This document shows, in pieces, positions 4,728 to 54,460 of a stretch of 64,000 nt of DNA (within the stretch, counting starts at the first letter, position 1; every line of letters begins with the position of its first letter). The stretch spans positions 99,740,010-99,804,009 of the forward strand of contig OY294067.1 of the NCBI GenBank assembly GCA_958510875.1, read 5' to 3'. A model generated the notes under the pieces. The model was given only the letters and a program-made list of their open reading frames with translations. It did not search any database and was not told the origin of the DNA. The translations under genes and the position numbers were made by a program. The DNA is from Endomychus coccineus (taxonomy: Eukaryota; Arthropoda; Insecta; Coleoptera; Endomychidae).

Positions 4728-5450
4728 TCAGGATATGTGTTCTGATGATCCAGAATGATTGTCGCCTTCTTTAAAGTCCTTATCACCTTGATTTACTGAA
4801 GATTTTCTGCAAATATTCTCATCGCTCTGAATGTCACACATAGTCATTTCTTCGGATTCAGTTTTGCCTGCATTACTCACCGGATGAAACTCATTTTCTT
4901 TATTTTCAACAACAACCAGAGGACATGTTTTAAAATTTTTCATGCATTCCATTGATTCATAAAATATCACATCTCTTCCAATCTTCACACATTCATTCTC
5001 ACAATCCCACAATCTGTATACATTTGGAACATAATCAATCATAATACATTTCAAACTCTTCTTATCAAATTTGCTATTTCGAAACTGTTTAGGTTTGTGA
5101 AGATATGCCTTAAAACCAAATATACGTAAATTTGATAGATTTGGTTTCTTACCATTCCATATTTCAAATGATGTTTGACATTTCATAGCTGTTGTGGGAG
5201 ATCTATTCAACAAATATGCTGATGTTCTGACTGCTTCACCCCAAAAATATCCATATTTGCACCAATAATCATAGAACGTGCCTTTTCAACTGAAGACCTA
5301 TTCAGTCTTTCAGCACGACCATTTTGCTCTGAAGAATATGGTACAGTATAATCAATAATGATTCCATTCGAATCAAAAAATCTCTAAACTCGTTAGAAAT
5401 ATATTCTCCACCATTATCACATTTCAATTTCAAACTTGATTATGCTGTTG
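4728..5450 (-). pseudogene. Copia integrase C-terminal half
   Basis: Beyond the nested LINE, the minus strand reads KCDNGGEYISNEF (second catalytic Asp), YSSEQNGRAER (catalytic Glu region), a frameshift near 5250, then LLNRSPTTAMKCQTSFEIWNG and LRIFGFKAYLHKP, the conserved copia region after the integrase core. An in-frame stop in the core and the frameshift mark it as dead. Confidence 0.8.
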
Positions 5451-5457
5451 TCATAGA

Positions 5458-6792
5458 TATATAGATAGATATTTTTTGGCGAAAATCATTATAACTTACA
5501 TTATAATTATTTACATAGTCAAAGAAATGTTTTAAATATTAAGAACAATTAAAAATAAATGGTTGTGACAATTAAGCAAATAAAAATAGAGTCAATACTT
5601 TCTCCACAGCACATTCAAGGACACATTAAAAAACATAGAGTGATCGCAGCTTTTTGTCTAATCTAAGCTGAGTTTAGCAAAATATTCACTAATGGAGTAT
5701 GGTTCAATATTAATCAATAGTTTTTTCAATTCCTTTTTGAATGCATTTATGCCTTTTATACGCGACAGATGTTCTGGCGGTGCGTTGTAGAATTTGATGG
5801 CACTATATTCTGGACCCTTTTCGCTTATTGTGAGGCGGTGTTTAGGCAGGGCGTACATGTGGTTGGGTCGGGTAGCGTATGTGCAGGGATTTTTGCTGAA
5901 TAAACTTTGATGTTTTCTCAAAAACATTATGCACTCCATAATGTAGATTCCATAGGTCGTAAGAAAGACGTATTTCTTGAAGATTCCTCTGCAGGACTGA
6001 CGCCTCTTTAGGCCATATGTAATACGCAATACAGATTTCTGTAACCGAAATACTCTCGTTACGTTCGGGCTATGACCCCAAATAATGATTCCATATTTTA
6101 TAATTGAAAATATATACACTGTTTTAATGGCCTCCCTGTTTAAGTATTTTGCAACTACTCGTATTGTATAGCAAGCCTGACTTAGTTTTTCACATATTTT
6201 ATTTATTTGCGATGCAAAAGATAGGTGTTCGTTGAAGTTAAACTCAACCCAGCCTCCATCTAGGATTATTTGCTTCGGGCATATGAAGTTATTATTATGT
6301 GTTTTGAAGAGAATACAACAGGTTTTGTTTTTATTTAGTATTAGTTTGTTAGGTATAAGGTAATTGTTTACGATTTTCAGAATTGTCAATGCTATATGTT
6401 CTGGAGATCGATCTTTTAGTACAGGTACCACTGCATTTGGGTCATCGGCATAGCTAACAAGTTGTTCACTAGTGTTCTGTATACTTTGAGGTAGGTCGTT
6501 TATGAAGATAATGAATAATATGGGACCCAGAATGCTGCCTTGTGGAATGCCGTTATTAATTTGGATTTCGTTGGATAAGCTGAGGGTTTGATTGTTAGAT
6601 ATCTTGACTTTTTGTATCCGGTTAAATAGATATGATTTGATTAGGGCGAGTGCAATTCCACGAACACCATAACGCTCAAGTTTTCCATACAAAATTTCGT
6701 GGTTCAGGCAGTCAAAAGCCTTAGTTAAGTCCATAAAGATTCCACAGGCTGCACCGTCACTCTCTAGGGCATTTAATACTTTTTTCAAAAAA
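5458..6792 (-). mobile_element. LINE (Jockey/CR1-like) inserted in the copia integrase
   Basis: A 376-codon open frame (6788-5658) encodes most of a non-LTR reverse transcriptase: CGIFMDLTKAFDCLNHEIL (motif A, catalytic Asp), NGIPQGSILGPILFIIFIND (motif B), a YADD box (here SYADDPNAV), LNKNKTCCILF, and a thumb/C-terminal region with IIKYGIIIWG and a final PEHLSRIKGINAFKKELKKLL. It is the most intact retroelement frame in the window, but it lacks the endonuclease and ORF1, so it is 5'-truncated, as LINE insertions usually are. The 3' UTR is AT-rich and ends near ATATCTATCTATATATCTAT at about 5460. It interrupts copia in the same orientation and is therefore younger than it. Confidence 0.85.
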
Positions 6793-7305
6793 TCAAATCA
6801 TATTTTTGAATGATTTAAAATATCCAAATACCTCAGACTTTGAAGACAATAAATATGTCATGCAGAAATCAGAAAAATAATCAAGAAATGTCAAAAAATA
6901 TCGTTTATTATCCCATGTAGATGGCGTTATTGAACCACATACATCTGCAGTTCTATGACCTTCATATGACAATTTATGTTGTTTAGCATTCACACAACTC
7001 TCACAAAATTTTCTTTCAGTCAAATCATTCAGTTTGAAACCTTCTATCATGTTTTCCAATTTTCTGATATACTGTTCATTCAAATGACCAAGCCGTTGAT
7101 GCCATATATCATAACTATTATTTTCAGCAATATAAACTTCATTCAAATCTATATCAACATGAAAGATTACTTCATATAGAGTGTTGTATTTGAAGCCACT
7201 TACCACAACTACATTATCTTTCGAAATGCCGACTACATTATTATTGAATACTACCTTGAAACAATTTTCTTCAATTCTACGCACGGACAAGAGATTTTTT
7301 CTCAA
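6793..7305 (-). pseudogene. Copia GAG-pre-integrase and integrase N-terminal half
   Basis: The translation shows the HHCC zinc finger of copia integrases: WHQRLGHLNEQ with His-x3-His, then KFCESCVNAKQ with Cys-x2-Cys. The start of the catalytic core follows (YFLTFLDYFSDF, first Asp). It is cut at 6793 by insertion of a LINE, and the core resumes at about 5450 on the other side. Confidence 0.85.
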
Positions 7306-7397
7306 ACTAGGTACATAAATTACATTATTGATGGTACAAATATATTTACACCTCTAACATTATTTGATACTCTCAAATATACGACATGTGTACCTTC

Positions 7398-7676
7398 TTA
7401 ATCTTGGTCAACTTTAGCTACACCTATTTTCAAAGAAGTTATCAATTTCCGTACTCCCTTCAGTAAATCCATATCATTTACAAGATGATCGGATGCTCCC
7501 GAGTCTACACACCATGATGACTTCCTTGAATCATTCGTTAAACATCCTTCGTTCGTCATGAATGCTATAGCTTCTATATCCTCTTCTGATTCAGCATCTT
7601 TGGACACATGAGCTTGCTTCTTTCTTTGCCGAGGTTGTTTTTCCAAAAAACGATTCTTTAGTCTATTAGGAAATTC
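7398..7676 (-). pseudogene. Copia protease segment
   Basis: The frame that follows the gag stop codon contains a basic linker (EKQPRQRKKQAH) and then SSWCVDSGASDHLV, the aspartic protease active-site loop (DSG) of copia polyproteins. It stops at 7398. The next part of pol resumes in another frame at 7305, so there is a frameshift in between. Confidence 0.8.
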
Positions 7677-7679
7677 ATT

Positions 7680-8282
7680 TCAAAAATGGCCTACTTCATT
7701 GCATCCAAAACAACGTACTTCATTTCTTCTATTTTGTAGCTTCGAGCCAAATGCACTACCATGATTGTCACCATGAACAATCACATGTCGTCTTTCAGCT
7801 TCCTTATCCAAAAGCCGTCCCTTCAGAGAATTAGTAGTAATATTGTCATTTGATAGAGTTTCAATAGCAGTGACAACAATATTATATGATTCTGGTAGTG
7901 TTAGTAGTAAAATACAAGCTATCATTTCTTCCTCCAATTTTCCTCCAGCTGATTTAATTTGACGCACAATATCATCAAATTTCAACAAATGAGTTTCCAT
8001 TGACATCCCTTCTTCATATTTCATTCTCAGTAAATTTCTCAAAAAATAAAGTCTATTAGAAACCACTTTTCTTTCAAATATATGCACAAACTTATCCCAT
8101 TTTTCTTTTGCTGTAGATCCCTCTCGAACGTACTCTAAATGTGTACCAGTAACACACTGGACTATTACTGACTTTGCTTTACTGTATTTTCTATCAAATA
8201 CCTTCTTATCATCTTCTTGTTCTGGCCGAAGTTCGGTAAGACATTTCAAAACATCATTCTCGATAAATGTCATAAATAGCAA
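7680..8282 (-). pseudogene. Copia gag with CCHC zinc knuckle
   Basis: A 200-codon reading frame with the UBN2/gag architecture of copia elements: VREGSTAKEKWDKFVHIFERK, then LRNLLRMKYEEGMSMETHLLKF and LLTLPESYNIVVTAIET, ending in a zinc knuckle CFGCNEVGHF. A TGA interrupts the knuckle before its final Cys, at 7677-7679. The same frame then continues through 7646-7398 into the protease, so gag and pol were one polyprotein. Gag packages the element RNA in virus-like particles. The start ATG at 8282 is internal: the usual N-terminal W-x-x-K segment is not in frame upstream. Confidence 0.85.
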
Positions 8283-8555
8283 AAGGCGGTGATATTCAGT
8301 AGGCCAGATAACATCTTACCGTGCCCTCCTCCAGGTGGAAAGTAGAGCTACAGGTCCTATATGTTGTACGATGTTACTGCATGTTTAAGATCCCCATCTG
8401 CCCTTGGAAATAGTCAGGATTCGGCAAAAAAAGTTTCCTCGTTAGGGTGAACTTGCCTCATGGCGTCGGTGCTAAGCCACATGATATAATACGTGATAAA
8501 ATGGAAATAATAATGATAATTAGACAATTCCATCACTTCAACAAATGTTAAAAAT
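8283..8555. other. Unassigned stretch 5' of the copia gag
   Basis: No protein motif is visible. It may include degraded copia leader or LTR sequence on the minus strand, but I could not match it to another copy in the window. Confidence 0.3.
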
Positions 8556-10463: not shown

Positions 10464-11510
10464 ACAGGGTGCTGCATTGGTGTGTCCAAGTTCGATATAT
10501 TTGTTATTATAGAAGATATCAAATAAAGTTATTTACGAAAATTGTACAGATTTGTAAACTTCACATTTGAAAATTGTTTTGTACAGGATGTTCCATTATG
10601 TTAAACCATATATTTTCAATGAGTGGCCACCTATAAATTATTTCAAATTCAGATCATGATCATCTTTCTCATACTTGCAATATAAGGTTTCATATAATGA
10701 TATGAGGTATTTCAGAACTCATGACCAATTGTATATTAAAATCATTGCAAGTTCAATGCCCTATAGCCTATATACTCCAAACAAATCAACTTGACATTGA
10801 TTTTTTGCAAGTATAAGTTTTCGACATTGCAGTTTTATAAGGAGTAGCAACTTTTTAATATGGCAACAACTGAATACAGGGGAAGTCAAAAGTCGAGCAC
10901 CGGAGTTTCTCAATTTTTTTAATGAATGACAGTTAAAGAGTTACCTATGCCTAAAATTATTAATTTCTGAGATATTTTTAATTTAATAACCGAAAGAGTT
11001 TTCTAGAAATTATTTCATTATAAATAATTAGCCGTGGAAAAATGATAGTGTACCTGAATAATTATTTTATGTTTCATTATTTTTGTATGACAATTTGTCT
11101 TACTATACTTTTCCCAAGGCTATCTAGTGAATAATAGAACAATATTTTAGTATCTCTTTTTTTTATTAAATTGGGAATATCTCAGCAATCAATGATTTAA
11201 GGTATAGAGAACGCTTGATAAAAATTGTAGCACATGCACTTATGCCTGCATAAAATTTATGTCAGGTTGTTTTGTTTGGAGTATACGTTGAACTAAAATA
11301 CATTGAAATACCACATTTAATCTAAAATCGCAACAACATATAGCCTGTCCCATTTAAGAAAATGCACGTTTGGTTCACCTTTGTAATATGAACATTTCAA
11401 AATGTGGAGTTTCACAATTTTCATGAATAACATTACTTGATATCTTCGAGAATAACGGATATATTTATGTTCGACACGCTAATTTCACATTCTGAACATA
11501 ATAAAAATTC
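10464..11510. mobile_element. Foldback/long inverted repeat element
   Basis: The left arm (from acagggtgctgcattggtg through gaagatatca, about 10480-10910) is repeated in inverted orientation on the right (about 11130-11505). Paired blocks are: the outer block with gaagatatca(a/g)(a/g)taa, the block with ttgatttgtttggagtatat against ttgttttgtttggagtatac, and an inner block around ttaatttctgagatattt against attgggaatatctcagcaat. Identity is about 70-75% by eye. No coding capacity is visible. It looks like an old non-autonomous element with long arms, possibly a mariner relative given the acagggtg end. Confidence 0.6.
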
Positions 11511-22339: not shown

Positions 22340-24450
22340 AAAATTTGCTGATGTTTCCTTCAGCCATTATATCGAATTCTCTGTAAACACATAAGATTTC
22401 AAAAAAAAGTACGCGTTCATTAAAAGTGTCTCCATACAAAAATTCAACACATCGATTAACTTGTTAAGGGATTTTTTTTGTTTTGATCCAACGTGGCCTC
22501 CAGAATAAAACTTATTTCTTGATAGCGAATATATGTGAGCTCCTGAGAGAGTTATTTATTCTATTTATTCAAGCATTTTTCATGAGATTTCTTAGATTTA
22601 AGACTGGTGAGCGTCAGAGTTGATTATATTGACAATCAACAGATCATAATGAGGATATAACCTTTTATTATGTTGAATTAAGAAATGAATACCATCAAAT
22701 ATTATTACACAGTAATTTTGAGATGTCGGTATACTTGAAGTGAATATTAAATAAGCTTGCTCCTTTTCAATTATAAAATTACAAAGTACTCCGATTTATA
22801 AAGTTGAATTAATGGATCCAACTTGGTACATCGGCTTATTCGAAGGTACTTCTACACCACCACAACCGAGCTTTCCTAATAAATACAACGATTTTCAGGC
22901 ATAAAGGGTACAATTGTCTACTAGACTCATCTTACAACTTTTCTAACCAGCTAACATTCTTTCACTAAATATAAATATGAACATATCTAGTGATGTGTGA
23001 TTGTATATTCTGATTTTGATGAGAAATATAAGAAACTTTGTATTTACTTCTCTCACTATACGTAGTATCTAATGTAAGCGAAGTATTGTAATAGGCCTAA
23101 AAAGTTCTAATTTTCGCTGATATCAGATAGAGAGCAATTCTGAGTCTATCTATTTTTCACATGCTGTCTGTTTGTGTAGGTGCGTGCGTGCGTAACCCAC
23201 TCTGGAGACGTTGCGCCGTTCCTATTGGTCGTATCGATTTTAAATTTTGCACATCGTTTGAAAGTGGTAAAAATAGGAACTTTATTGTTTTAGGGCGGTG
23301 TAGCCCCGTCTAAAGTGGTATTTCTGAAATCCATCTTTAGTTTTCCGAATTAAATTATTAATATATCATATTGAACTATAAGGACAACCGTGTTTTTCTG
23401 GTTATAAATATATCTCAAATGTTTATATTTAACCCGCAGAGAAGTGTCCGAAATTCACATTTTGAGTTCCAAGAGACGTCAGCGAAGTGTAAAGATTCAG
23501 TTTATTTTCTGTGTTCACTGTGTTGTGTAATGGTATAAATAATTGCCCTTGTCTATGAATAGTTGGACTGTGAGAATGAATGAAGGTTATGATAACTTCG
23601 ATACAATAACAATAATCTACTAATGATTTTTAGGGATCCTTTAAGAAATGCTGCATCAACGAAGAAATAGATGGAGATTGAGCGACGTTGAAACATTATT
23701 CCATCTTGTAGTAACCGTTTTAGTATTAAAAATTTTACAAATGATGATGATTCATGTCATGCTCTGGAAATATGTAAAATATAAAATAGCTTAGATCTGA
23801 TGCTGTGACTAGGTGATCATCAAAAGTACAATTCTGCAGGCCAAGTTACTGTATCATGAACTTCGCATTCACATCATAATGATTATATCTCAGCTTCAAG
23901 CGATCATTGAATCCTTTCAATGATATGTAAGAAACTGAATATTGTTTCATAATTTTGTTTTCGAAAAATAATTTTACTGAAAATCACAATGAAAATAGAA
24001 GTATGAATGAATCTTTTACATGTTACAATGTGAATGATTTCACATAACACTGCACTTCAGTTCCAGCTTCATAGAGTATATCACGAACTGGACATCCAAT
24101 GTTCTTTTTTCTTATTTTAAATAATTACATAGTTACTTTTTTCATCGAGCATTTGATAAACCCTACAACTGTTTGCTAATTACATTCAAGATTAAAAATA
24201 GCACTGTTCATTATTCTGTAAGCAGAGGATGGTAAAACTCTGATAAAATCAGCAATGATAATTTCCCAGCGTTGAAACAGTGGGAGAAAATGTAGAAAGT
24301 AACTTCTTTTAAGAGCAATCGGATATTATTTGATATATATCATGTAATCAGATAAGTGATACCATACCGTATCATATCAGATTGTTGTTAATTTGATTTC
24401 CAAAAAAGCAAGAACATACATTTCTATATTTATTTTCCATTGATTTTTCA
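22340..24450. other. No coding feature; repeat-like DNA
   Basis: AT-rich with no protein motif. The phrase agaagtgtccgaaa at about 23440 recurs at 24772, each time with related flanks, so an old interspersed repeat is present. Confidence 0.4.
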
Positions 24451-24454
24451 TATA

Positions 24455-24760
24455 GTGTAAGGGAGGAATTGAAATCAGTCCAAAAAAATGTGAAATCACA
24501 ATCTATTTTATTCGAAAATTTTGATAGTTCATGTGACAGTAGGTGTCTGGGTCAGTCTAAAACAAGGTTATACTATAGTGTGAATAATGCGACAGTCAAC
24601 CTGGCAACAGGTGACAATATGAAACACAAAGTAGTAAAATACATTATATAGAAATGTAGACTATTTGAATAAATTTTCAACGTAACATAAAGTTTATCTA
24701 AAATTCCTTCATTAGCGGTTTATGAATCATTTACAATATATTTTCTATTCATACATTGGA
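24455..24760 (-). repeat. Interspersed repeat family R-46, inverted copy
   Basis: The reverse complement reads aaccgctaatgaa and tataaccttgttttagac, followed by tactgtcacatgaactatca, matching the repeat copies at 46330-46573 and 50467-50640. It confirms that those two segments are halves of one repeat that was later split by the pogo composite. Confidence 0.7.
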
Positions 24761-24764
24761 CCCA

Positions 24765-26040
24765 CAGAAGTGTCCGAAACCTATTTTGCTTACAAAAGTC
24801 TAGAATGTCACTTAGTCAATTGAACACAGTTCATTTAGCAAAACATTCAAATTTTCACACGCTCCCGGAAAAGCGTCGATATATCGGAAAATACGCGTTT
24901 TGGAAAAAACTGTAATATACATTATCTTTATACAACATTCGTTTACTCACTTCAGTTTTTTCAGATTGTTCACATATCCAGACATTCTCCATTTCTAACA
25001 AACCACCATTTGTTTGATCTTTTTGGAAAATACATTTTTCACAAGAAAGTTTTGCATTTCTTAATATTTTTAAATATTAGGTATTCCAAAGTCGATCGAA
25101 TACTGGTAGTTCTCTTCGATATGGAAAATTCCAAACAGCTATTGCAGGGAAAATGATGTGCATTTTCTGGAAACTATGTTGAGAAAATAAATTGTAGATG
25201 CTGGTTTCGTTTTCAAAAAATTTTGAGAAAATTGACAAATTAGTTTTTTGCTTATTGTTTATAATAAACTGTCTAATGGACCAAACTAATTTATTTTTAC
25301 CTTCTGTGGTTTGATCACAAAGAATAAATTGGCACAACTTTTGACTCAATTCAAGTTTCTTATCGAATTTCGCTATATATTCCTTTTCTGGAGCTTATTT
25401 TCCTGTACTGTAGTGGACATTTTTATGATATTGATGTCGGTTTAAGCGGACGTCATGAATTTGTATGAAATATGTATATTACTATACTGAGCAAGGCATT
25501 TTAAATCTATTTTCCCGTGCTACCACCGATTTAGTAAGTTCATAATATGAAGTTTGAAGGACGTGAGTTGAGTTCACTCAAATCTTGGTTATCAACGTAA
25601 TAGTTGGGTAATAATTATTATTGGTCTAGTGCTCACGTTGATTCTACAAATGAAGTGTCCGAGTAGTTTAATAAAGCACTTGACGAAAACTGCCAGAACT
25701 CTCGAACAACATTATTGGGACTTGTTTTTGCTCGCTCACCACCACATTCAATTCAATTTAGTAATACTCACATAACGGAACAACTTCCAAGAGCCGAGGA
25801 CTACAGACAAAACAAATACAGACAGTTATTTAACAAATATGAATAAATAGCTTGTTTCATATTCACTTCATTGAAATACATCAACCATAGCAGGTACAAA
25901 TTCTCATATGTACAAATCTGGATGAAAGGTGAATATATGAATGGATTTTTTTTACAGCTACACAGATAAAACGTCATAGTTGTGGCAATGATAATTATTC
26001 ATTAATAATGAAACAAAACTATTCTATTTGGTAGTATTGT
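24765..26040. other. No recognisable feature
   Basis: AT-rich presumed intronic DNA. A 90-codon minus-strand frame at 25349-25077 has no recognisable motif. Confidence 0.4.
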
Positions 26041-41732: not shown

Positions 41733-42520
41733 TGATACAGAATTTTACAATACATGTATACCTTACCATTATTCACTATAAAATTCCGATATATTTACAG
41801 TTTACGGAATAGACAGAGCTAGGAAGAATGTACTTTACCAAATATGACAATTCAATTACTGACCTCTGATTACACCTCGACGCAGGCACAAACAACCAAA
41901 ACAGACTGGTTTTGCTACACAATTAATTCAAAAGATAATTAATTAATTAATTAATACTGATAATTCTCAACTTACTTTCGGTTCCGATATTCTTGAAATG
42001 GTTCGATTCACTTTCGGAGTTATACATTTCACTGCCAGATCGAATTCACACTCTAGTAAGATAAGCAAGATAAGCAAGATTTGACAGGTTTTCAAGATTT
42101 TTCAAGATGCTTGAGAGATCCTATGTTCATCTTCTATATGTTTTCAGTCGGCGGTCTGGCCACTTCACCAATTCCTTGAGCTGCCCTTTCCAATATAACC
42201 CGCTCAATAGTTTTCAATAACGCTACTTTTTCTATCAATAAATCGCGGGAATGATCCTCCGGTAATTCCTTTTGGCGAGGCAGAAACTGCTATCAGCTTC
42301 TTGTATTTAGTTTTTACACATAATAGTGCTAAATGAAACGTTAACGTCGAATGATTCTCGTTTTTTTACGACTAAGTTTATCGAAACGAGTGCATATTTC
42401 TCTATACTACATACTTATTTGAATGAAAAGCAACTCTATTTCTTCAAAAGTACCTACCTATTTTAAGTAAACAGAGGAAGGTACCTTATAGAAAACCGTT
42501 TATTTATCCAAAATTAACTA
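41733..42520. other. No coding feature; (TAAT)n run
   Basis: A short (TTAA)n-like run is at 41936-41955, and agataagca units are tandem at 42060-42080. I recognise nothing else. Confidence 0.4.
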
Positions 42521-42924
42521 TTTCAAAACAGTTTTCGACCCGGTTTGTGGCTATCACCACCTTCTAAAAGGTTCAAAGTTAACATTTCGACCATTTTGTT
42601 CGTGCTCCGTGCGGCCGGCGCCAGTCGTAATAAAGTCTTTTTTTTAAAACCGGCCAGAAATTAGTACTTTCCGGTTTATTTTTAGGTCAGAAAATCTCAT
42701 TTTGTCGGACCGAGCCAGAAAATTATTGTGATAGTCCTGTAAAAGCTTTTACCGGACTCATTTTTATTTACTTTCCGGCCTATCTAATGAAAAAAATAAT
42801 AAAATAGTTAGTCTAAGATAGCGGTCAATTGGTTTCTATAGTAACCGAGTTTTGTATTATTTAAAACTATAAAATAACTTGACATATTTTGACGTTTAGT
42901 TGAAAACGTGACATTTATTATAAA

Positions 42925-43093
42925 ATGGATATTCAAAATGATTGTGAATTAATGGAAGATGAAATTATACCAGATGAATTGTTAAGGCGGCCACCCAAGC
43001 AACGTTTGATTTATTACCGTCGAAGTCCCGGATACGATATGAACAAACATACCAAATTTTTGAAAATTTAATTAATGAAGAGTTCTTGTTATA
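42925..43093 (+). pseudogene. Tyrosine-recombinase-like N-terminal fragment
   Basis: From ATG 42925 an acidic leader (DCELMEDEIIPDE) is followed, after a +1 frame change near 42985, by LLPSKSRIRYEQTYQIFENL and then a stop at 43091. This closely resembles the start of the core-binding domain of the recombinase at 48895 (LLPEKSRKKYELQYGKF). No catalytic part follows; palindromic DNA begins at 43156 instead. It may be the 5' end of a related, deleted recombinase gene or an element that carried one. The short length limits confidence. Confidence 0.5.
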
Positions 43094-43155
43094 AAAATAT
43101 AAACTGAATAATATGAAGTTTATGGTACAACAATGTCTGTTTTAAAAAAAATATT

Positions 43156-43278
43156 GTACGTAATACGTCCCAAAAGTGCTTTTACTGGACTCGCAGGCTT
43201 GCAGGACTCGCCTGCGGCTCGCCCTGCAATTTGCCCACTCGTCCAGTAAAAGACCACTTTCGGGACTTGTTACGTAAA
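43156..43278. repeat. Inverted repeat of about 120 bp
   Basis: acgtaatacgtccc(a)aaag and cttttactggac on the left are mirrored by gtccagtaaaag and ctttcgggacttgttacgta on the right, with a GC-rich loop (caggcttgcaggactcgcct). Confidence 0.75.
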
Positions 43279-44124
43279 CTACTATTTTGCTATGGGCCGC
43301 TAGCTTTTACCCGCTTCGGGTATATTTCAGTAGCTAGAAAATTCCCTTTGGTACGTAGCACGTTAGACGTGCATGGCTGCGATCTGACAATACCTCAAAC
43401 TATTTTAATTGAATTTTCCTATTTAATGGACATTTATCGGAAAAAGAAGGGCCGTCGGGCACGGTCCGATACCAAATCTAACTACATGGAGCGAAAACGG
43501 CACGAGAAAAGTCGTCGTAAAGCCGTATTAGGTACAACCAATTTGCACTTTTCTAACTCGCGAGCTACGGGCTCCTCACGTGAACGTCATTCGATTTACG
43601 GAAAATTTCAAAACAGTTTTTGACCTGGTTTGTGGCTATGACGACCTTTTAAAAGGTTCAAAGTTTACTTTTTGACAAAGTTAACTTTGAACTTTTTAAA
43701 AGGTCGACACAGCCCCAAACGGGGTCGAAAACTGTTTTAAATTGGTCAATTTTCCGTAAATCGAATGACGTTCACGTGAGGAGCGCGTAGCTGGCGAGTT
43801 GGAAAAGTGCAAATCTTCGGAACATAGAACGTCTTTACGAGGACTTTTCGCGTGCCGTTTTCGCTCCATTTCGTTAGTTTATGAACGGGGCCAACTAAAT
43901 AGCATAGTCTCGGGCCCCAAAAATGTCGTTTAAATACGAAAATTTAATTCAAATAGAAACAGGCACTCTCAGGTCTCAGCTATGCACGTCTAACGTGCCA
44001 CGTACCAAAGGGAATTTTCTAGCTACCGAAATATACCCGAAGCGGGTAAAAGCTAGTGGCCCATAGCAAAAAAGACTTTATTACGACTGGCGCCAGCCGC
44101 ACGGGGCACTACACGGCCCCAAAT

Positions 44125-44929: not shown

Positions 44930-45337
44930 AACCTTTTCGTTAACGAATGGAAAGTTGTTATTTCCATGAAAAAATCGATTGCAAGATTTTAATTGCGTGG
45001 AAACCAAGTTCTGAAATTGTGGATTCTACATTGTTAACATTATTCTACCTCTACACTTGCTCGAATAATTCTTATCTAGAAAAAGTCGATAGTTTGAAGT
45101 AGATTTCTTCAAATAGCTCCCAAAATAATGACAAGCTTTTCGTTAACGAATGGACATTTTTTGTTCCTATGAGAACATCGGTTGTAAGATTCTGATTGCG
45201 TGGAAACGAAGTCCTGAAATTACGGAATCTACATCATTATCATTATTCTACCTCTACACTTGCTAGAATAATTCTCATCAAGAAAACGTTGATAGCTTGA
45301 AGTGGATTTCTCCAAATTGCTCCCAAAATAATGACTA
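44930..45337 (+). repeat. Tandem duplication, two units of 203 bp
   Basis: cttttcgttaacgaatgga starts at about 44933 and again at 45136. The two units stay in register through attattctacctctacactt to gctcccaaaataatgac, with about 85-88% identity by eye. A clean two-unit duplication with no neighbours. Confidence 0.85.
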
Positions 45338-45865
45338 ATATAGACAATCAAACCGTTCTCTCAATTAGAAATACAAAAAAAATTACGTACAGGAGATGAA
45401 AACGGTATTCGGTACATGAAAAACTGTTTCTGTAAACATTGTAAAGCGGCTGGGATGATTCAATTTATTTATAAATAGGAGCTTTTAAACGTGAAAAACC
45501 ATTAAAAACCCCAAAATTCTTCTATTATTGTTGTATTTTTAGTTACGACTGCTAATTTCTGTTCACGAAAACTTTGTTATAAATATACCGGCTAACTCAT
45601 TTTGAATCAACTCCAGGAATATGTTGAAAAATATGCACCGAACAGAAAAATATTATCAACAAAACTATCGTGGCTTAGAGAGGGCTGTTCAATTTCCAAA
45701 CATTTTCCATCCACACTCCCCTTGGGGTAGGTATGACGTTGAAATATCGAATAAGAAATCCCCTACTTTTTAGTGCAGATTCTTATAAATCGTCAGAAAT
45801 TAAGTAGTGCTGAATAGAAGAATTCTTTCTCTGATGGTGGTAAAATAGACATAATATAACTGTGA
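45338..45865. other. No recognisable feature
   Basis: AT-rich spacer, no motif seen. Confidence 0.35.
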
Positions 45866-45869
45866 TCAA

Positions 45870-46330
45870 TCGGTCACTTTTGTTAGCAAAATAGCTTTCG
45901 GAAACTTCTGCGGGTCAAATGTATGATTGTAGAAATAAAAAATATATTGTAAATTATTTAGAAACCTTTAATGAAGGAAATTAAATTTTACTATACATTG
46001 AAATTCTATTCTAATGTCTACATAATGTAATCCACCAATCTATGCTGTCAGGTTTACTTAATTAATTCACCCTCGTTTGATACTGACATCAGCTGGAATG
46101 GGACTTCACATAGATGACGTCACTTCTTGATGTTAAATATATGCGCGTGATTGTCACTTTAAACCAGAAAACACATTATGTTTCGTTAAAATACTATAAT
46201 TTCATTTGGGAAAAGTGAAGATGGTTATCAAAAATACCACCTGAATCGAGACTACCGAGCCCAATACAAATATAGTTCCTGTTTTCACCAATTTGAAGCG
46301 ATCTGCAATATTTCAGATTCAGATAACCAA
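45870..46330 (+). repeat. Interspersed repeat R-46, uninterrupted copy (empty-site reference)
   Basis: It contains ttgttagcaaaatagctttc, tctacataatgtaatccacc, atggttatcaaaaatacca and ttgaagcgatctgcaa in the same order as the following copy at 46331-46573 plus 50465-50940. At 46028-46029 it has a single TA exactly where the neighbouring copy holds the 3.9-kb composite transposon, so it serves as an empty-site control. Confidence 0.75.
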
Positions 46331-46573
46331 TAGGAAATGTGCAATCGTTTCCACATACGCAGGCACTGACATCATGTAAGAAAACGCTGTTAGCTATCGA
46401 TCATGTGAGTTTCCTCACTATTGTTAGCAAACTAGCTTCCGGACACTCATGCGCGTTAAATGTAAATCATTGTAGGAACAGAAAATGTATTCGATATGAT
46501 TTAGAAACCGCTAATGAAAGAATTATACTTATTATGTTACATTGAAATTTTATTCAAATATCTACGTCATGTA
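46331..46573 (+). repeat. Interspersed repeat R-46, left half of the interrupted copy
   Basis: gttagcaaactagcttccgg and aaaccgctaatgaaag are R-46 sequence running to tctacgtcatgTA, where the composite transposon begins. The repeat resumes at 50465. Confidence 0.75.
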
Positions 46574-46588
46574 GGGGAGGGTCCCGTA
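46574..46588 (+). repeat. Left terminal inverted repeat of the composite transposon
   Basis: GGGGAGGGTCCCGTA, followed by subterminal units ccttaagcc and gtacctcgagcc. It is identical to the reverse complement of 50450-50464 over all 15 bases. Confidence 0.9.
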
Positions 46589-46931
46589 CCTTAAGCCGTC
46601 CTGTACCTCGAGCCAGCCGAATAACTGTTGACATTTCTTCCTATAAGAGTTGGCAACACCCTCGACTGTCGCGAGTGTGACTACGATTGGTATCATCCAG
46701 TCAGTTATAGTTAAATGCAGTCGACACGTGTTATTGGTGAAAACTTCGATTTTGCGTCTTCAAACTAAGTTTTTAATTTCTTAATATTCATCGTTTTTTT
46801 AGGTCTTAATGTAGATATAATTTCGAACTATTTACGGCATGTAATAGTGAGTTAATACTTAACATATTCACACACTTTTCCTAAATTTAAGTTTCACGTT
46901 TTTTTCTTTTGCAAAATCGAATAAGAAAAAC
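46589..46931 (+). other. Leader of the composite transposon
   Basis: No helix-turn-helix coding sequence is visible here although pogo transposases need about 150 N-terminal residues of DNA-binding domain. Either an upstream exon was deleted or it has decayed beyond recognition. Two gtacct(t/c)(a/g)agcc units lie at its left edge. Confidence 0.6.
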
Positions 46932-48537
46932 ATGCCCCAGTCCTGGATAGTCAATGAAAAAGCTGGAAAACAGTGGTTTCGAGAATTTATGAAGAGGCAT
47001 CGTGAACTAAGTCTTAGAAAACCTGAGGCTACTAGTATAGCACGCGCCACCAGTTTTAACAGACATAATATTGGCATGTTTTTCACTAAACTGGAGGAAA
47101 GTATTGCAAAATATCAGTTTACTGCCTCAGATATTTACAGTATGGACGAAACCGGAAACTGCACTGTGCAAAATACGACCAAGATAATTGCGGCCAAAGG
47201 ACAAAAACAGAGCTGCGACATCTGGAGAAAGGGGATCAAATATTACCATGATAGCCTGCATCAATGCTCTCGGAAATAGCGTACCGCCTATGTTTATATT
47301 CTCCAGAGTTACTTTTAGGCAAATTATGCTGAATGGTGCCCCAGCGGATTCAATTGGATCTGCTCATAAATCTGGATGGTCAAATTCGGAAACATTTCTT
47401 ATATGACTGCAACATTTTATTGATAAGGAAAGGCCAAGTCCGGAGCATAAAAAATTATTAATAATGGACAACCATGAAAGCCATTGCTCTCTTGAAGCTG
47501 TTACATTATCAAAAGATAATGGAATAATTTTACTGACTTTACCACCCCATACTAGTCACAAGCTCCAGCCCCTTGACCGTGCAGTTTTTGGTCCATACAA
47601 GCAATATTACAATAATGCATGTGACGAATGGCTTTTGAAGCATCCAGGACAACCAATCACTTTACATTATGTCGCAGAACTAGCGGGAAAAGCATATCCA
47701 CTGGCGTTCACCCCAAAAAATATTCAGTCTGGATTTAGAGTCTCGGGAATTTGACCCCCGAATGAAAATATTTTCGGCGATGAAGAATATCTTTCTTCAT
47801 CAGATACCGATCGTGAAGAGCCTACCGGCTCTACAAATGATCCCAAACCGTCTACAAGTCATCATTTGGTTCCTCTCAATGACGGTGATGATAATAATGC
47901 ACTTGCAATGGAACGAACTGGCCCGGAGTTCACAATTCCTGAACAATTGCGGCCATATCCAAAAGCAAAGACTCGAACTATGAAAGCCAGTAATCGTAAG
48001 AAAACAAAAAGTAGAGTTCTGACTGACACCCCCGAAAAAGACGAAATCGAACGAATTTTCAATGAAAGGCAAAGAAAAGAAGAGCTGAAAAAAAGCAAGC
48101 AAGTCGTCCGAAATATTACAGCCAGAAAAAATAAAGTCCCAGTGGAAGTGGAATCATCTGAAGACGAAGAGACATATTCGCCGGACTCGGACAGTTCAGA
48201 AATATCAAATGAAATTTGTGAGCCTGAGAAACAAGCATTTGTATGCACATCATTAAAACATGGTGATTATGTGCTGACGAAAATTTTTGGGAAAAAATCA
48301 ATTCATTTTTTTGTGGCCGAGATTATTAACATTGTTACTAATGTTGAATTTCAAGAAAAATACTTGAAGAGGTTTGGTTCTACAACCAAGTTTGTGAGAG
48401 AAAATGAGGAAATATTCACGATTGACATGGAGAGCATCGTTTTATCCCTGCCACAGCCTATACGTGGAGGATTATCAGAAAGACAAAAAAACATGTTGAC
48501 TTTTGGGATTGACTTTGCATCATATAACGTTGAATAG
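46932..48537 (+). pseudogene. pogo/Tigger-type DDE transposase, decayed, lacking its N-terminus
   Basis: The reading begins MPQSWIVNEKAGKQWFREFM, the segment after the CENP-B-like HTH, and continues ATSFNRHNIGMFF. The DDE_1 domain follows: DIYSMDETGN (first Asp), a frameshift near 47215, SGERGSNITMIACINALGN, GAPADSIGSAHKSGW, a stop at 47404, LIMDNHESH (second Asp), PPHTSHKLQPLDRAVFGPYK (third Asp), a stop at 47752, then a long charged C-terminal region (KAKTRTMKASNRKKTKSR; SSEDEETYSPDSDSSE) and a closing HGDYVLTKIFGKKSIHFFVAE segment. Both stops are TGA at positions where Trp is usual, so simple G-to-A changes explain them. All three catalytic acids are still present, but the protein cannot be made from this copy. 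Confidence 0.88.
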
Positions 48538-48625
48538 ACTTCAGTCGTTGATTTCTCATGTTTTTGTAATTACATTTTGTGAAATACATGCTCCAACTCA
48601 TATCAGTATTAACTTATTTGTGAAT

Positions 48626-48681
48626 GGCTCAAGGTACATTACACATGGCACAAGGTACAAGACTTTATTGTACCTTGAGCC
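48626..48681 (+). repeat. Internal hairpin of subterminal-type repeats
   Basis: GGCTCAAGGTAC (48626-48637), a variant GGCACAAGGTAC (48647-48658) and the inverted GTACCTTGAGCC (48670-48681) form a hairpin. The same 12-mer, in slightly diverged form (GTACCTTAAGCC and GTACCTCGAGCC), lies beside the left terminal repeat. These may be transposase-binding sites, and their position between the two genes looks like a relic internal terminus. Confidence 0.75.
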
Positions 48682-48894
48682 ATTATACCTTTTGAAAAGA
48701 AACAAAAATATTTAATTTATTGTGAAATATTTTCCACAAATACTTTTTTCTACAAACGCTTAACAAAGTAGCCTTTGACGCTTTCAGATTTCAACGCAAA
48801 GTTGACGTTTTCCGTGAAATGTCATTTTGTGACAGCATTTGCGCTCTAAAGCGGAAATATTTCGAAAACGCTCGCTTCTCTAACGTATTTCTGC

Positions 48895-50111
48895 ATGATG
48901 ATTGATGATAGTGACAGTGAATTATCAAACACTCCTCCTGATGTAGCAGAAAGTGCAAAAATTGTTACTTTGAATCTCCTACCAGAGAAATCAAGGAAGA
49001 AATATGAATTACAATACGGTAAATTCATGACGTGGTGCCAGTCGAAGAAGGTGAATAAGTATTCAGAAAACGTATTACTGGCTTATTTTGGAGAAAAATC
49101 ATTGATTTGTAAGTCATCAACTCTTTGGTCTACGTATTCGATGATACGGACATGCTTGAATGTTAAAAATAACATCGAAATCAATAAGTATCCTAAACTT
49201 ATCGCATTTCTGAAGAAACAGTCTGTTGGATATAAAGCGAAAAAATCCAAAACATTCACCACTGAAGATATTCACAAATTTTTACAAGAAGCGCCCGATG
49301 AAGAATATCTACTAAAAAAGGTAAATTTTAATATTTCATGCTCTTAGTAGTTTGAGAAGCGGTTAGTATTTTTTTGAATTTAGTGCAATTTGGTTAGCAT
49401 AGACATTTGGAATAGCTATTAATTGCAGTTTTTTTATAGGTTATTCTAATTATGGGTATTGCTGGTGCCTGCAGGCGCGATGAGTTGGTCAAAATGGAGA
49501 TTGGTGACATAGAAGATAAGGATTCTATTTTAATAGTCCCGATTCAAAAACGAGAATAAGCCGTGTTTTTACGATTGTTGGTCATAATGAAGAGAATTCA
49601 GTTGATTATCTTTCAATTTGTAAAAAATATATTGCACTCAGAAAACATTGTCTGAATAACAATACTGTCCAACGTCTATTTTTACGTTATGAAAAAGGTA
49701 GATGTATGAAACAAGTTGTGTGTATGAATACAATCGGCAAGACTCCCAGTGACATTGCTGAATATTTGAAATTGCCCGAGCATAATTTATATACTGGACA
49801 CTGTCTCCGACGAACCTCTGCACTTTATTGGTGAATGGTGGAGGTGACCTAATACAACTGAAAAAACATGGTGGATGGAAAAGTAACAATGTAGCAGAAG
49901 GCTACATAGATGATTCAATCAACAATAAGATTGAAACTACCAAGAGAATATTCTCAAGACCATCTACATCTCGTTCTGTAGATTTCCAATATTCGGGGGA
50001 ATTAATGTTAGATAAATCTACTGATCGTCCATCAGGTTCGGGAATAATAATTAAAGTTACAATTGTACATTCAATTTTAGTATAGTCAATGATAAATTAA
50101 ATCAACATTAA
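48895..50111 (+). pseudogene. Tyrosine recombinase (phage-integrase fold, Crypton-like) inside the pogo-type element
   Basis: Exon 1 (48895-49320) encodes an acidic leader and a core-binding domain: LLPEKSRKKYELQYGKFMTW, STLWSTYSMIRTCLN, then KSKTFTTEDIHKFLQEAPDE. An intron (49321-49439, gtaaat...ttttatag, phase 0) follows. Exon 2 carries the catalytic domain: GACRRDELVKM (first Arg), RVFTI, YTGHCLRRTSA (HxxR), LKKHGGWKSNNVAEGYIDDS (His/Trp and nucleophile Tyr). So the R-HxxR-H/W-Y set is complete and in order. Frameshifts lie near 49548, 49825 and 50055. After the last one the frame ends SYNCTFNFSIVNDKLNQH with TAA at 50109. Recombinases of this fold cut and rejoin DNA through a Tyr-DNA bond, and in animals they are known from Cryptons, DIRS elements and host genes derived from them. 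Confidence 0.85.
49321..49439 (+). other. Intron of the tyrosine recombinase gene
   Basis: AAG/gtaaat donor and tttttttatag/GTT acceptor, phase 0, 119 bp. Removing it joins PDEEYLLKK to VILIMGIAGACRRDEL, a coherent recombinase sequence. Two in-frame stops inside it support splicing. Confidence 0.8.
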
Positions 50112-50224
50112 TCAGGAATTTATAAACTGTACTTGATGTACTTTTGTTGAATAAAGCATCTGGTGTTTTTTCTTTTTTTTTTTTCTGAAAACTGCGTTTG
50201 TAGAAAAAATCCTGTGTGTATTTC

Positions 50225-50324
50225 GAGCACAAAGTGTCATTGTCGCTCTCCAAAGATTACCGCGCTCCGCTTTGCGTCGCGCGGTAACTCTCTTTGTCGA
50301 GCGACAATATATCACTTTGCGCTC
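50225..50324. repeat. 100-bp hairpin near the right end of the composite transposon
   Basis: gagcacaaagtgtcattgtc, a ctctccaaaga spacer and ttaccgcg on the left are mirrored by cgcggtaa, ctctctttg and gagcgacaatatatcacttt with gcgctc on the right. The loop is ctccgctttgcgtcg. It may be a recombinase or transposase target, or a small foldback inserted in the element. Confidence 0.75.
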
Positions 50325-50449
50325 TTAATACACAAATAGCTATTGCCATATGATAGGGCACATATGAAACTCAATGTCACATTATTGAAAGATCGACCTT
50401 TTGTTTTTTGCTGCATTTTGTAAGGATTTGAAAATACCTGGCGTCAAGC

Positions 50450-50464
50450 TACGGGACCCTCCCC
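50450..50464 (-). repeat. Right terminal inverted repeat of the composite transposon
   Basis: tacgggaccctcccc, the exact reverse complement of the left end, followed by the TA duplication at 50465-50466. The inner flank (cgtcaagc) is a diverged form of the subterminal ccttaagcc unit. Confidence 0.9.
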
Positions 50465-50960
50465 TATTTCACAACTCCATGATTCATACTGACACTTGCT
50501 GTCAGGTTGGCTTTCGCAATTATTCATACTACAATATAACCTTGTTTTATACCGACACTTGCTGTAACATGAACTATCAAAATGTCCCACAAAATCAAGA
50601 ATTCTTCTTGCACAGAATAAGGACATGAAATAGATCTTGACGTCACATTGATGACGTTACTTGAATCATAAAATGTGAATTTCGGTTTCTTCTGCTGGTT
50701 AAATGTATACGTGTGATATATATTTATAACCAGAAAAACATGCTTGTTCTTATGGTTCAATAAATTACCATGAGCAGATTCGAAAAAATTATGATGGTTA
50801 TCAAAAATATCACTGTAATCGAGGCTACAATTCCCATTTACAATAACTGTATTGTAAATGGGAACTGTCCTATTTTCACCATTTCAAAGCGATTTGCAAG
50901 TTCAAATCCATACAACCAATAGGATCATTAAAAAAATATATTGTCGTTTATCTGATTGAA
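50465..50960 (+). repeat. Interspersed repeat R-46, right half of the interrupted copy
   Basis: Resumes with tttcacaactccatga and runs through tataaccttgttttatacc, atggttatcaaaaatatcac and tttcaaagcgatttgcaag, matching R-46 at 46030-46320 and the inverted copy at 24455. A perfect 19-base inverted pair (tcccatttacaataac / tattgtaaatggga) lies at about 50831-50862. Confidence 0.7.
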
Positions 50961-54148: not shown

Positions 54149-54460
54149 GAGAATGAGTGTCTCGCTTTGGAAGCGAATATTCGTTGGGCGGAAGCTTTCA
54201 TCCTAATGTATTCCGTTACAGACAAATGTTCCTTCGACGAATGTTACAGATTGAAGTTCCTTATAAACTACAACAAAAGACGACGCAAGTTGGGGAGCGT
54301 CACGAAAGACGGTTTGGGAGATGTGCCAGTTGTGCTTATTGGTAACAAGATAGATCAGGCTGAGGATAGGATGGTTTCATCCGAAGAAGGCCAGAGAAGA
54401 AGTAAAGAAATTGGTTGTGTGTGCTTTCATGAAATATCAGTGCGAGAAAGTATAGAACAG
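54149..54460 (+). CDS. Ras-like small GTPase (RERG/RasL12 type), internal exon with G4 and G5 boxes
   Basis: This 104-codon exon has clean splice sites: acceptor ttatttgcag before GAG and donor CAG/gtagtt, both phase 0. It starts ENECLALEANIRWAEAF, matching the RERG segment that ends in MRWGEGF. It continues with LMYSVTDKCSF (the beta4 'VYDITD' region), VVLIGNKID (G4, NKxD specificity motif), a VSSEEG stretch and CFHEISVRE (degenerate G5, in the position of the SA(K/R) loop). There are about 13 extra residues, rich in Lys and Arg (YNKRRRKLGS...), before the G4 strand. RERG-family proteins bind and hydrolyse GTP, and family members lack C-terminal prenylation. The upstream intron is 42,036 bp and the downstream intron 3,227 bp. 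Confidence 0.9.

Follow-up and report, generated by a model that had tools for sequence, protein, structure and literature searches.

Among the closest described systems is MarCry-1_FO of Fusarium oxysporum, a fused Mariner-type/Crypton element with 16-bp terminal inverted repeats (TIRs), TA duplications and four copies that are more than 97% identical (PMC3212892). Because these four copies are so similar, MarCry-1_FO is taken to move as a unit. It was placed in CryptonF in the same source (PMC3212892), and the MarCry name recurs in PMC4511438 and PMC4920403. The consulted sections of Kojima and Jurka (2011; PMC3212892) report no terminal repeats for animal Cryptons, and describe CryptonI-1N1_RPro as a non-autonomous Crypton derivative keeping both ends. 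A literature search for insect elements with two enzymes, or for Cryptons with a terminal palindrome, turned up only the Fusarium MarCry among the titles, abstract openings and passages that it covered.

The window, which is the whole 64-kb stretch of Endomychus coccineus DNA that was analysed, contains an outer unit of 3,891 bp (46574-50464) with GGGGAGGGTCCCGTA ends and TA duplications. Its perfect 15-bp TIRs are inverted identical 15-mers at 46574-46588 and 50450-50464; counted with the TA, the arms reach 21 nt at 95%. The TA duplications lie at 46572-46573 and 50465-50466. Two paralogues in the window, at 24518-24799 on the minus strand (region of about 24.4-24.9 kb) and 45874-46060 on the plus strand, read across the outer insertion site with a single TA and confirmed both outer junctions. 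At up to 3 mismatches, the TIR 15-mer matched the window three times, twice at the unit ends, compared with a mean expectation of 0.18 and a largest value of 2 in 100 shuffles. The third candidate (54292-54306, 3 mismatches) was dropped, as visual inspection suggests that it falls in a coding exon. Short TIRs and a TA duplication are features of pogo/Tigger elements (IS630-Tc1-mariner). The unit encloses DDE and tyrosine recombinase (YR) genes within one TIR pair with TA duplications, as in the MarCry type. The preliminary description had reported identical 15-bp TIRs, TA duplications and two DNA-cutting enzymes in the same orientation between them. The ends were borne out by the 15-mer comparison and the two paralogous empty sites, and the gene arrangement by the reading frames.

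The first gene (46932-48537, plus strand) is a broken pogo-type DDE transposase. Its longer piece matched Pfam DDE_1 (E=4.9e-19), the catalytic domain type of pogo/Tigger elements, and 35 residues separate the second and third Asp. This spacing is typical of pogo-like DDxD transposases, and domain and spacing together confirm the earlier assignment to pogo/Tigger. The gene has one frameshift near 47.2 kb and two in-frame TGA codons (47404-47406 and 47752-47754), at which two longer relatives, P0122 and P0125, have W. The N-terminal part of about 100 residues is missing, and tblastn matches start at residue 104 of P0122 and residue 98 of P0125. Of an N-terminal HTH_psq/CENP-B-like DNA-binding part, the Pfam search showed only a tail of HTH_Tnp_Tc5, below the cutoff. 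Since P0122 and P0125 (74% and 53% identity) have the HTH part, its absence was read as a loss in this copy; P0124 (57% identity, 509 aa) was also listed without it. Two Gonioctena quinquepunctata proteins among the listed relatives have 91-92% identity over 43-47% of the query.

The YR gene follows on the plus strand. A probable 119-nt GT-AG intron (49321-49439) separates exon 1 (48895-49320) from exon 2 (49440-50085), which has two frameshifts and the catalytic residues. The stitched product matched Phage_integrase (PF00589, E=7.8e-9), and the R, K, HxxR, H/W and Y residues of Crypton tyrosine recombinases are all present in it. In a 31-row alignment, conservation was 90% or higher in the columns matching its R, K, H, R and Y, and complete for the W. 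PF00589 was the sole Pfam domain above the cutoff in the stitched YR and four relatives, with no further C-terminal domain; P0061 alone among the 120 listed YR relatives carries a further Pfam domain (PF10545). The domain match and alignment agree with the earlier identification of a tyrosine recombinase with R, HxxR, H/W and Y, and the probable intron agrees with its description as spliced. To that description it can be added that neither enzyme gene of the unit is intact. Counted by hand, the DDE gene has 3 lesions in about 1.6 kb and the YR gene 2 in about 1.05 kb, and this similar decay does not demonstrate that the YR arrived later.

A second YR element, decayed and internally deleted, lies in a T run at 42644-43286 (plus strand, limits uncertain by a few bases). 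It is about 4 kb upstream and away from the pogo ends. YR N-terminal similarity was found at 42978-43061, and 86 of the 120 listed YR relatives matched this element at E<=0.1 (best 1e-5), although these queries are not independent. Its empty site lies at 43982-44109 (minus strand), in the opposite arm of the inverted repeat that hosts the element, and places a palindrome of about 145 bp (43145-43288) at the 3' terminus of the element. The best repeat common to its two ends is 46 nt at 72%, with none long, and the palindrome stands at one end. The window is thereby shown to contain a separate YR element that ends in a palindrome.

A palindrome was also found 3' of the YR gene inside the unit, at 50215-50334 within a homologous stretch of 50198-50344. 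Only four hairpins with a span below 400 bp and E<1e-5 occur in the 64 kb, and two of them lie directly 3' of the two YR sequences. The two palindromes align without gaps over 147 nt with a common dyad centre and 84/147 identical positions. The highest score was 68 in 80,000 dyad-preserving shuffles and 67 in 80,000 plain block shuffles, and shifting the register by up to 40 nt gave at most 50/147. By this alignment, the two palindromes are homologous. Both palindromes are paired at 27 of the 72 symmetric pairs, and at 7 of these 27 the two sides have both changed; 12 pair in the nested copy only, 10 in element 2 only and 23 in neither. The raw dyad counts of 39 and 37 are not unique, with counts of 36-38 at four further sites of the window (GC 14-37%). 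The 5' ends of the two elements showed no homology above chance (205 of 1,000 shuffles reached the score). This comparison of palindromes and ends covers two YR elements, both in the 64-kb window.

The hairpin at 10936-11216 had no match nearby from the 242 YR and DDE queries at E<=0.1. Outside the unit, these queries also gave 8 matches at 6-7 kb, the best with E 0.004, and single matches at 50 kb and at 54 kb.

The motif GTACCTTGAGCCA was found in two left subterminal copies on the plus strand (46586-46615), at 46586-46598 with 2 mismatches and 46603-46615 with 1 mismatch. Three internal copies (48625-48682) lie at 48625-48637 and 48646-48658 on the minus strand and 48670-48682 on the plus strand. 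At up to 2 mismatches, five of the six matches in the window are in the unit, two at its left end and three just 5' of the YR. The control gave 0.65 expected matches and a largest value of 3 in 100 shuffles, but these statistics are post hoc because the motif was chosen from the same unit. The left copies are possible transposase sites, and the internal cluster may represent the pogo 3' subterminal region.

Therefore, the locus very probably consists of two nested, decayed elements, with a Crypton-like YR element of about 1.65 kb inserted in the 3' non-coding part of a pogo-type element. This is the most likely explanation because YR element 2 has its own empty site, the palindromes are homologous, and the pogo motif cluster lies just 5' of the YR. 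The nested element would span 48690-50344 (1,655 bp, plus strand); its 3' end was set by homology to YR element 2, and its 5' end probably falls at about 48685-48740. The homologous palindromic stretch stops 120 bp short of the pogo end, so that the pogo 3' end, including the right TIR, presumably occupies 50345-50464 on the plus strand. In the proposed order of events, a pogo/Tigger-type cut-and-paste element would have entered a TA, its DDE transposase acting on the 15-bp TIRs, presumably aided by the subterminal motifs. The separate YR element would then have entered between the motif cluster and the 3' end. Judging from YR element 2, such elements may insert in a T run and generate at most a small duplication, and the 3' palindrome probably holds inverted binding sites where the recombinase acts. 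Both enzymes have decayed.

The preliminary description preferred a lineage with two recombinases, for which nothing positive was found beyond the single unit. Its alternative, a Crypton in a pogo copy, fits the YR element's own terminal palindrome, YR element 2 and the internal motif copies. A related YR without pogo ends, which it had named as one half of what would refute its preference, lies about 4 kb away. A composite lineage like the fungal MarCry, in which a pogo element captured a Crypton-like YR as passenger or helper and a pogo DDE enzyme mobilised the 3.9-kb pair as one, is improbable. It would account for the clean TIRs and TA duplications around the outer unit and the similar decay of both genes, it has a precedent in the fused Mariner-type/Crypton element of F. 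oxysporum in the consulted part of PMC3212892, and a nested insertion is compatible with later joint movement. However, the related YR in the same window is without pogo ends, and the DDE of the window is without its DNA-binding half. Contig sizes, as weak evidence, point the same way and towards nesting: the 83 YR-bearing metagenome contigs counted have a median of 1,687 bp, against 1,655 bp for the proposed YR element, and 82 of them fall short of the 3,891 bp of the pair, leaving one as long. This count used 83 of 120 listed rows (of 706 matches), the 37 that name ncbi, uniref or nr as a source being left out.

It is very unlikely that the YR has long belonged to this pogo family as an integral second gene and that the palindrome is a pogo feature. 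The same orientation and the position of both genes inside the TIRs would suit this reading, but YR element 2 lacks pogo ends and has both a homologous palindrome and an empty site of its own. The contigs of the pogo relatives, also weak evidence, had a median of 2,888 bp, and 100/106 of those counted were shorter than the pair; the 106 come from 120 listed rows (of 2,288 matches), after removal of 10 ncbi/uniref/nr rows and of 4 from ena whose contigs exceed 100 kb, and with the mixed row P0227 kept. Flanked loci encoding YR or DDE were sought in viral and genome contig collections, and none was confirmed by tblastn. An assembly join or chimera of two unrelated elements can be almost wholly discounted. 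The frameshifts could be sequencing errors, but at both outer junctions the flanks on either side match one repeat family, whose paralogous copies have a single TA; a single insertion would be expected to leave this pattern.

A two-recombinase element would be striking in an animal, but the simplest reading is a transposon nested in a transposon, and a MarCry-like mobile pair in an animal is improbable here. What was less expected is that two copies of an insect YR element share a long, conserved terminal palindrome. One copy has its 3' end defined by an empty site, the other by homology. Tentatively, and at somewhat less than an even chance, insect YR transposons of this family terminate in a palindrome of about 145 bp that serves as the recombinase excision/integration site, with length and dyad centre kept while the sequence drifts with partner changes. 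If so, it would give landmarks for elements whose ends were hard to define. Since animal Crypton ends were reported without terminal repeats in the consulted part of PMC3212892, the palindrome may offer a testable recombination site and a handle on non-autonomous copies.

Compared with known systems, the outer element resembles the insect pogo/Tigger transposases among the 120 listed matches in DDE_1, the 35-residue Asp spacing, the TA duplication and short TIRs. P0122 and P0125 keep the N-terminal HTH part that the copy in the window lost. Eulor repeats fold into hairpins. Eulor5/Eulor6 and the salmon non-autonomous Cryptons, by description in the consulted part of PMC5753468 only, are alike in that relatives were recognised by their ends; they are vertebrate CryptonA-type elements, unlike the insect element here. 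MarCry-1_FO, as far as its consulted description goes, is alike in having Mariner-type DDE and Crypton YR genes in one short TIR set with TA duplications. It differs from this locus, of which the only known copy is broken and in which the YR is bounded by an end of its own. Within the consulted accounts, CryptonI and the animal Cryptons resemble the YR element here in an insect YR-only protein without a further C-terminal domain. They also share non-autonomous derivatives that keep both ends (CryptonI-1N1_RPro there, YR element 2 here), and no cut-and-paste-type TIRs were seen on YR element 2. In contrast to the animal Cryptons in the consulted part of PMC3212892, both copies here carry the 3' palindrome.

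The pogo unit (46574-50464) is bounded by terminal inverted repeats of 15 bp that match perfectly (21 nt at 95% when TA is counted), and TA flanks the unit on either side. At up to 3 mismatches, the 15-mer has three matches in the window (0.18 expected), two of which are the unit's ends. The flanking DNA is part of a repeat family, more copies of which lie elsewhere in the window. Two paralogous empty sites, at 24.9-24.4 kb (minus strand) and 45.87-46.06 kb, carry a single TA, and their alignment runs across the junction. Therefore, the outer boundaries and TA duplication are real, as the preliminary description had stated. The landing repeat family covers 45001-46573 and 23203-24799, with left copies about 541 bp apart and inverted copies at 23-25 kb.

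The DDE transposase part (46932-48537) matched Pfam DDE_1 (E=4.9e-19), and 35 residues separate its second catalytic Asp from the third, which confirmed the pogo-type enzyme described within the TIRs. The gene is broken by one frameshift near 47.2 kb and two in-frame stops (47404-47406 and 47752-47754), both TGA, where the longer relatives P0122 and P0125 have W. It is without its N-terminal HTH part, and matches to these relatives begin at their residues 104 and 98. Among the best 120 of 2,288 homologues found, two Gonioctena quinquepunctata proteins aligned with 43-47% of the query, at 91-92% identity. Another DDE relative, P0210, is a 509-aa pogo-type transposase filed under Blattabacterium cuenoti in a 635-kb record, either as host DNA inside an endosymbiont record or as contamination.

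The tyrosine recombinase (YR) part (48895-50085) carries two frameshifts and a probable 119-nt intron (49321-49439). The stitched product matched Phage_integrase in Pfam (E=7.8e-9) and retained the catalytic positions of 30 aligned relatives. The recombinase and its active-site residues were thus upheld, with splicing only probable. Among the best 120 of 706 homologues, the closest showed 66% identity. Organism names in these 120 were insects in all but one, a bacterial MAG; Gonioctena was not named in any of them, most being without an organism. The YR relative P0061 has a second Pfam domain, PF10545, C-terminal to the recombinase.

A second YR remnant was detected at 42978-43061 by tblastn with YR relatives, 86 of 120 of which matched at E<=0.1 (best about 1e-5), although these are related queries and not 86 independent matches. 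A palindrome (43145-43288) directly follows it. This decayed element, YR element 2, sits in one foldback arm, and the opposite arm (minus strand, 44109-43982) is uninterrupted over the site. The empty site sets its limits at about 42644 and 43286, within a T run, so the palindrome lies at its 3' end. The large foldback host (42502-44109) carries YR element 2 in only one arm; it is self-palindromic at 80% over 43282-44074, with more arm pairs at 42502-42643.

The YR in the pogo unit likewise has a palindrome downstream of it (50215-50334). Both fold well beyond shuffles (z -10.77 and -7.05; 0/200 shuffles each). Their ungapped alignment gave 84 identities over 147 nt, compared to a maximum of 68 in 160,000 shuffles (80,000 dyad-preserving) and 50 in the next-best register within 40 nt, and the dyad centres coincide. 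Among 72 symmetric pairs, 27 are paired in both (20 identical, 7 altered on both sides); pairing is confined to the nested copy in 12 and to YR element 2 in 10, and is absent from both in 23. The raw dyad counts are 39 and 37, with 36-38 reached at four other window places. The palindrome claim is based on two copies.

Two copies of the motif GTACCTTGAGCCA are located at the pogo left end and three more at 48625-48682, a stretch that separates the DDE stop codon from the YR. With no more than 2 mismatches allowed, five of its six window occurrences are these copies (0.65 expected; a post hoc figure, the motif being picked from the unit), and 10 additional places elsewhere have 3 mismatches. 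The cluster at 48625-48682 is read as the pogo 3' subterminal region. We infer the 5' limit of the nested YR element (48690-50344); towards their 5' ends, the two YR elements gave no significant alignment (score reached by 205 of 1,000 shuffles). Without 48690-50344, the pogo element would be 2,236 bp, with the lost N-terminal part to add.

The preliminary description weighed a two-recombinase lineage against a Crypton that landed in a pogo copy. Because of YR element 2 with its empty site, the homologous palindromes, and the GTACCTTGAGCCA copies 5' of the YR, the second reading was preferred and the lineage rated unlikely: in outline, the DDE and YR genes are most likely a nested pair of already known kinds. 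Among the matches listed, metagenome contigs with YR had a median of 1,687 bp (1 of 83 at least 3,891 bp) and those with DDE 2,888 bp (6 of 106). These lengths agree with separate elements, but the contigs might just be short. No relatives were found in two contig collections (viral and genome).

Elsewhere in the window, copia-like pieces (4728-8315, minus strand; Retrotran_gag_2 at 7683-8315, pol pieces identified by eye) are split by a reverse transcriptase ORF (5661-6797; RVT_1, E=2.9e-21), which looks like another nested pair. The stretch at 54250-54420 resembles, by eye, a Ras-family GTPase exon.

The YR element's terminal palindrome is the part that deserves follow-up. In the accessible portions of the open-licence literature, including PMC5753468, neither an animal counterpart of MarCry nor a terminal palindrome report was found. 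According to a 2011 paper, animal Cryptons showed no terminal repeats, and both ends are retained in a non-autonomous CryptonI family (PMC3212892), as in YR element 2. The paper also describes MarCry-1_FO of Fusarium oxysporum, with four copies of over 97% identity (PMC3212892); the name recurs in F. graminearum and F. virguliforme papers (PMC4511438, PMC4920403). The pogo unit resembles MarCry-1_FO, whose DDE/YR pair lies inside 16-bp TIRs and TA duplications (PMC3212892), in enclosing both genes within TIRs and TA duplications.
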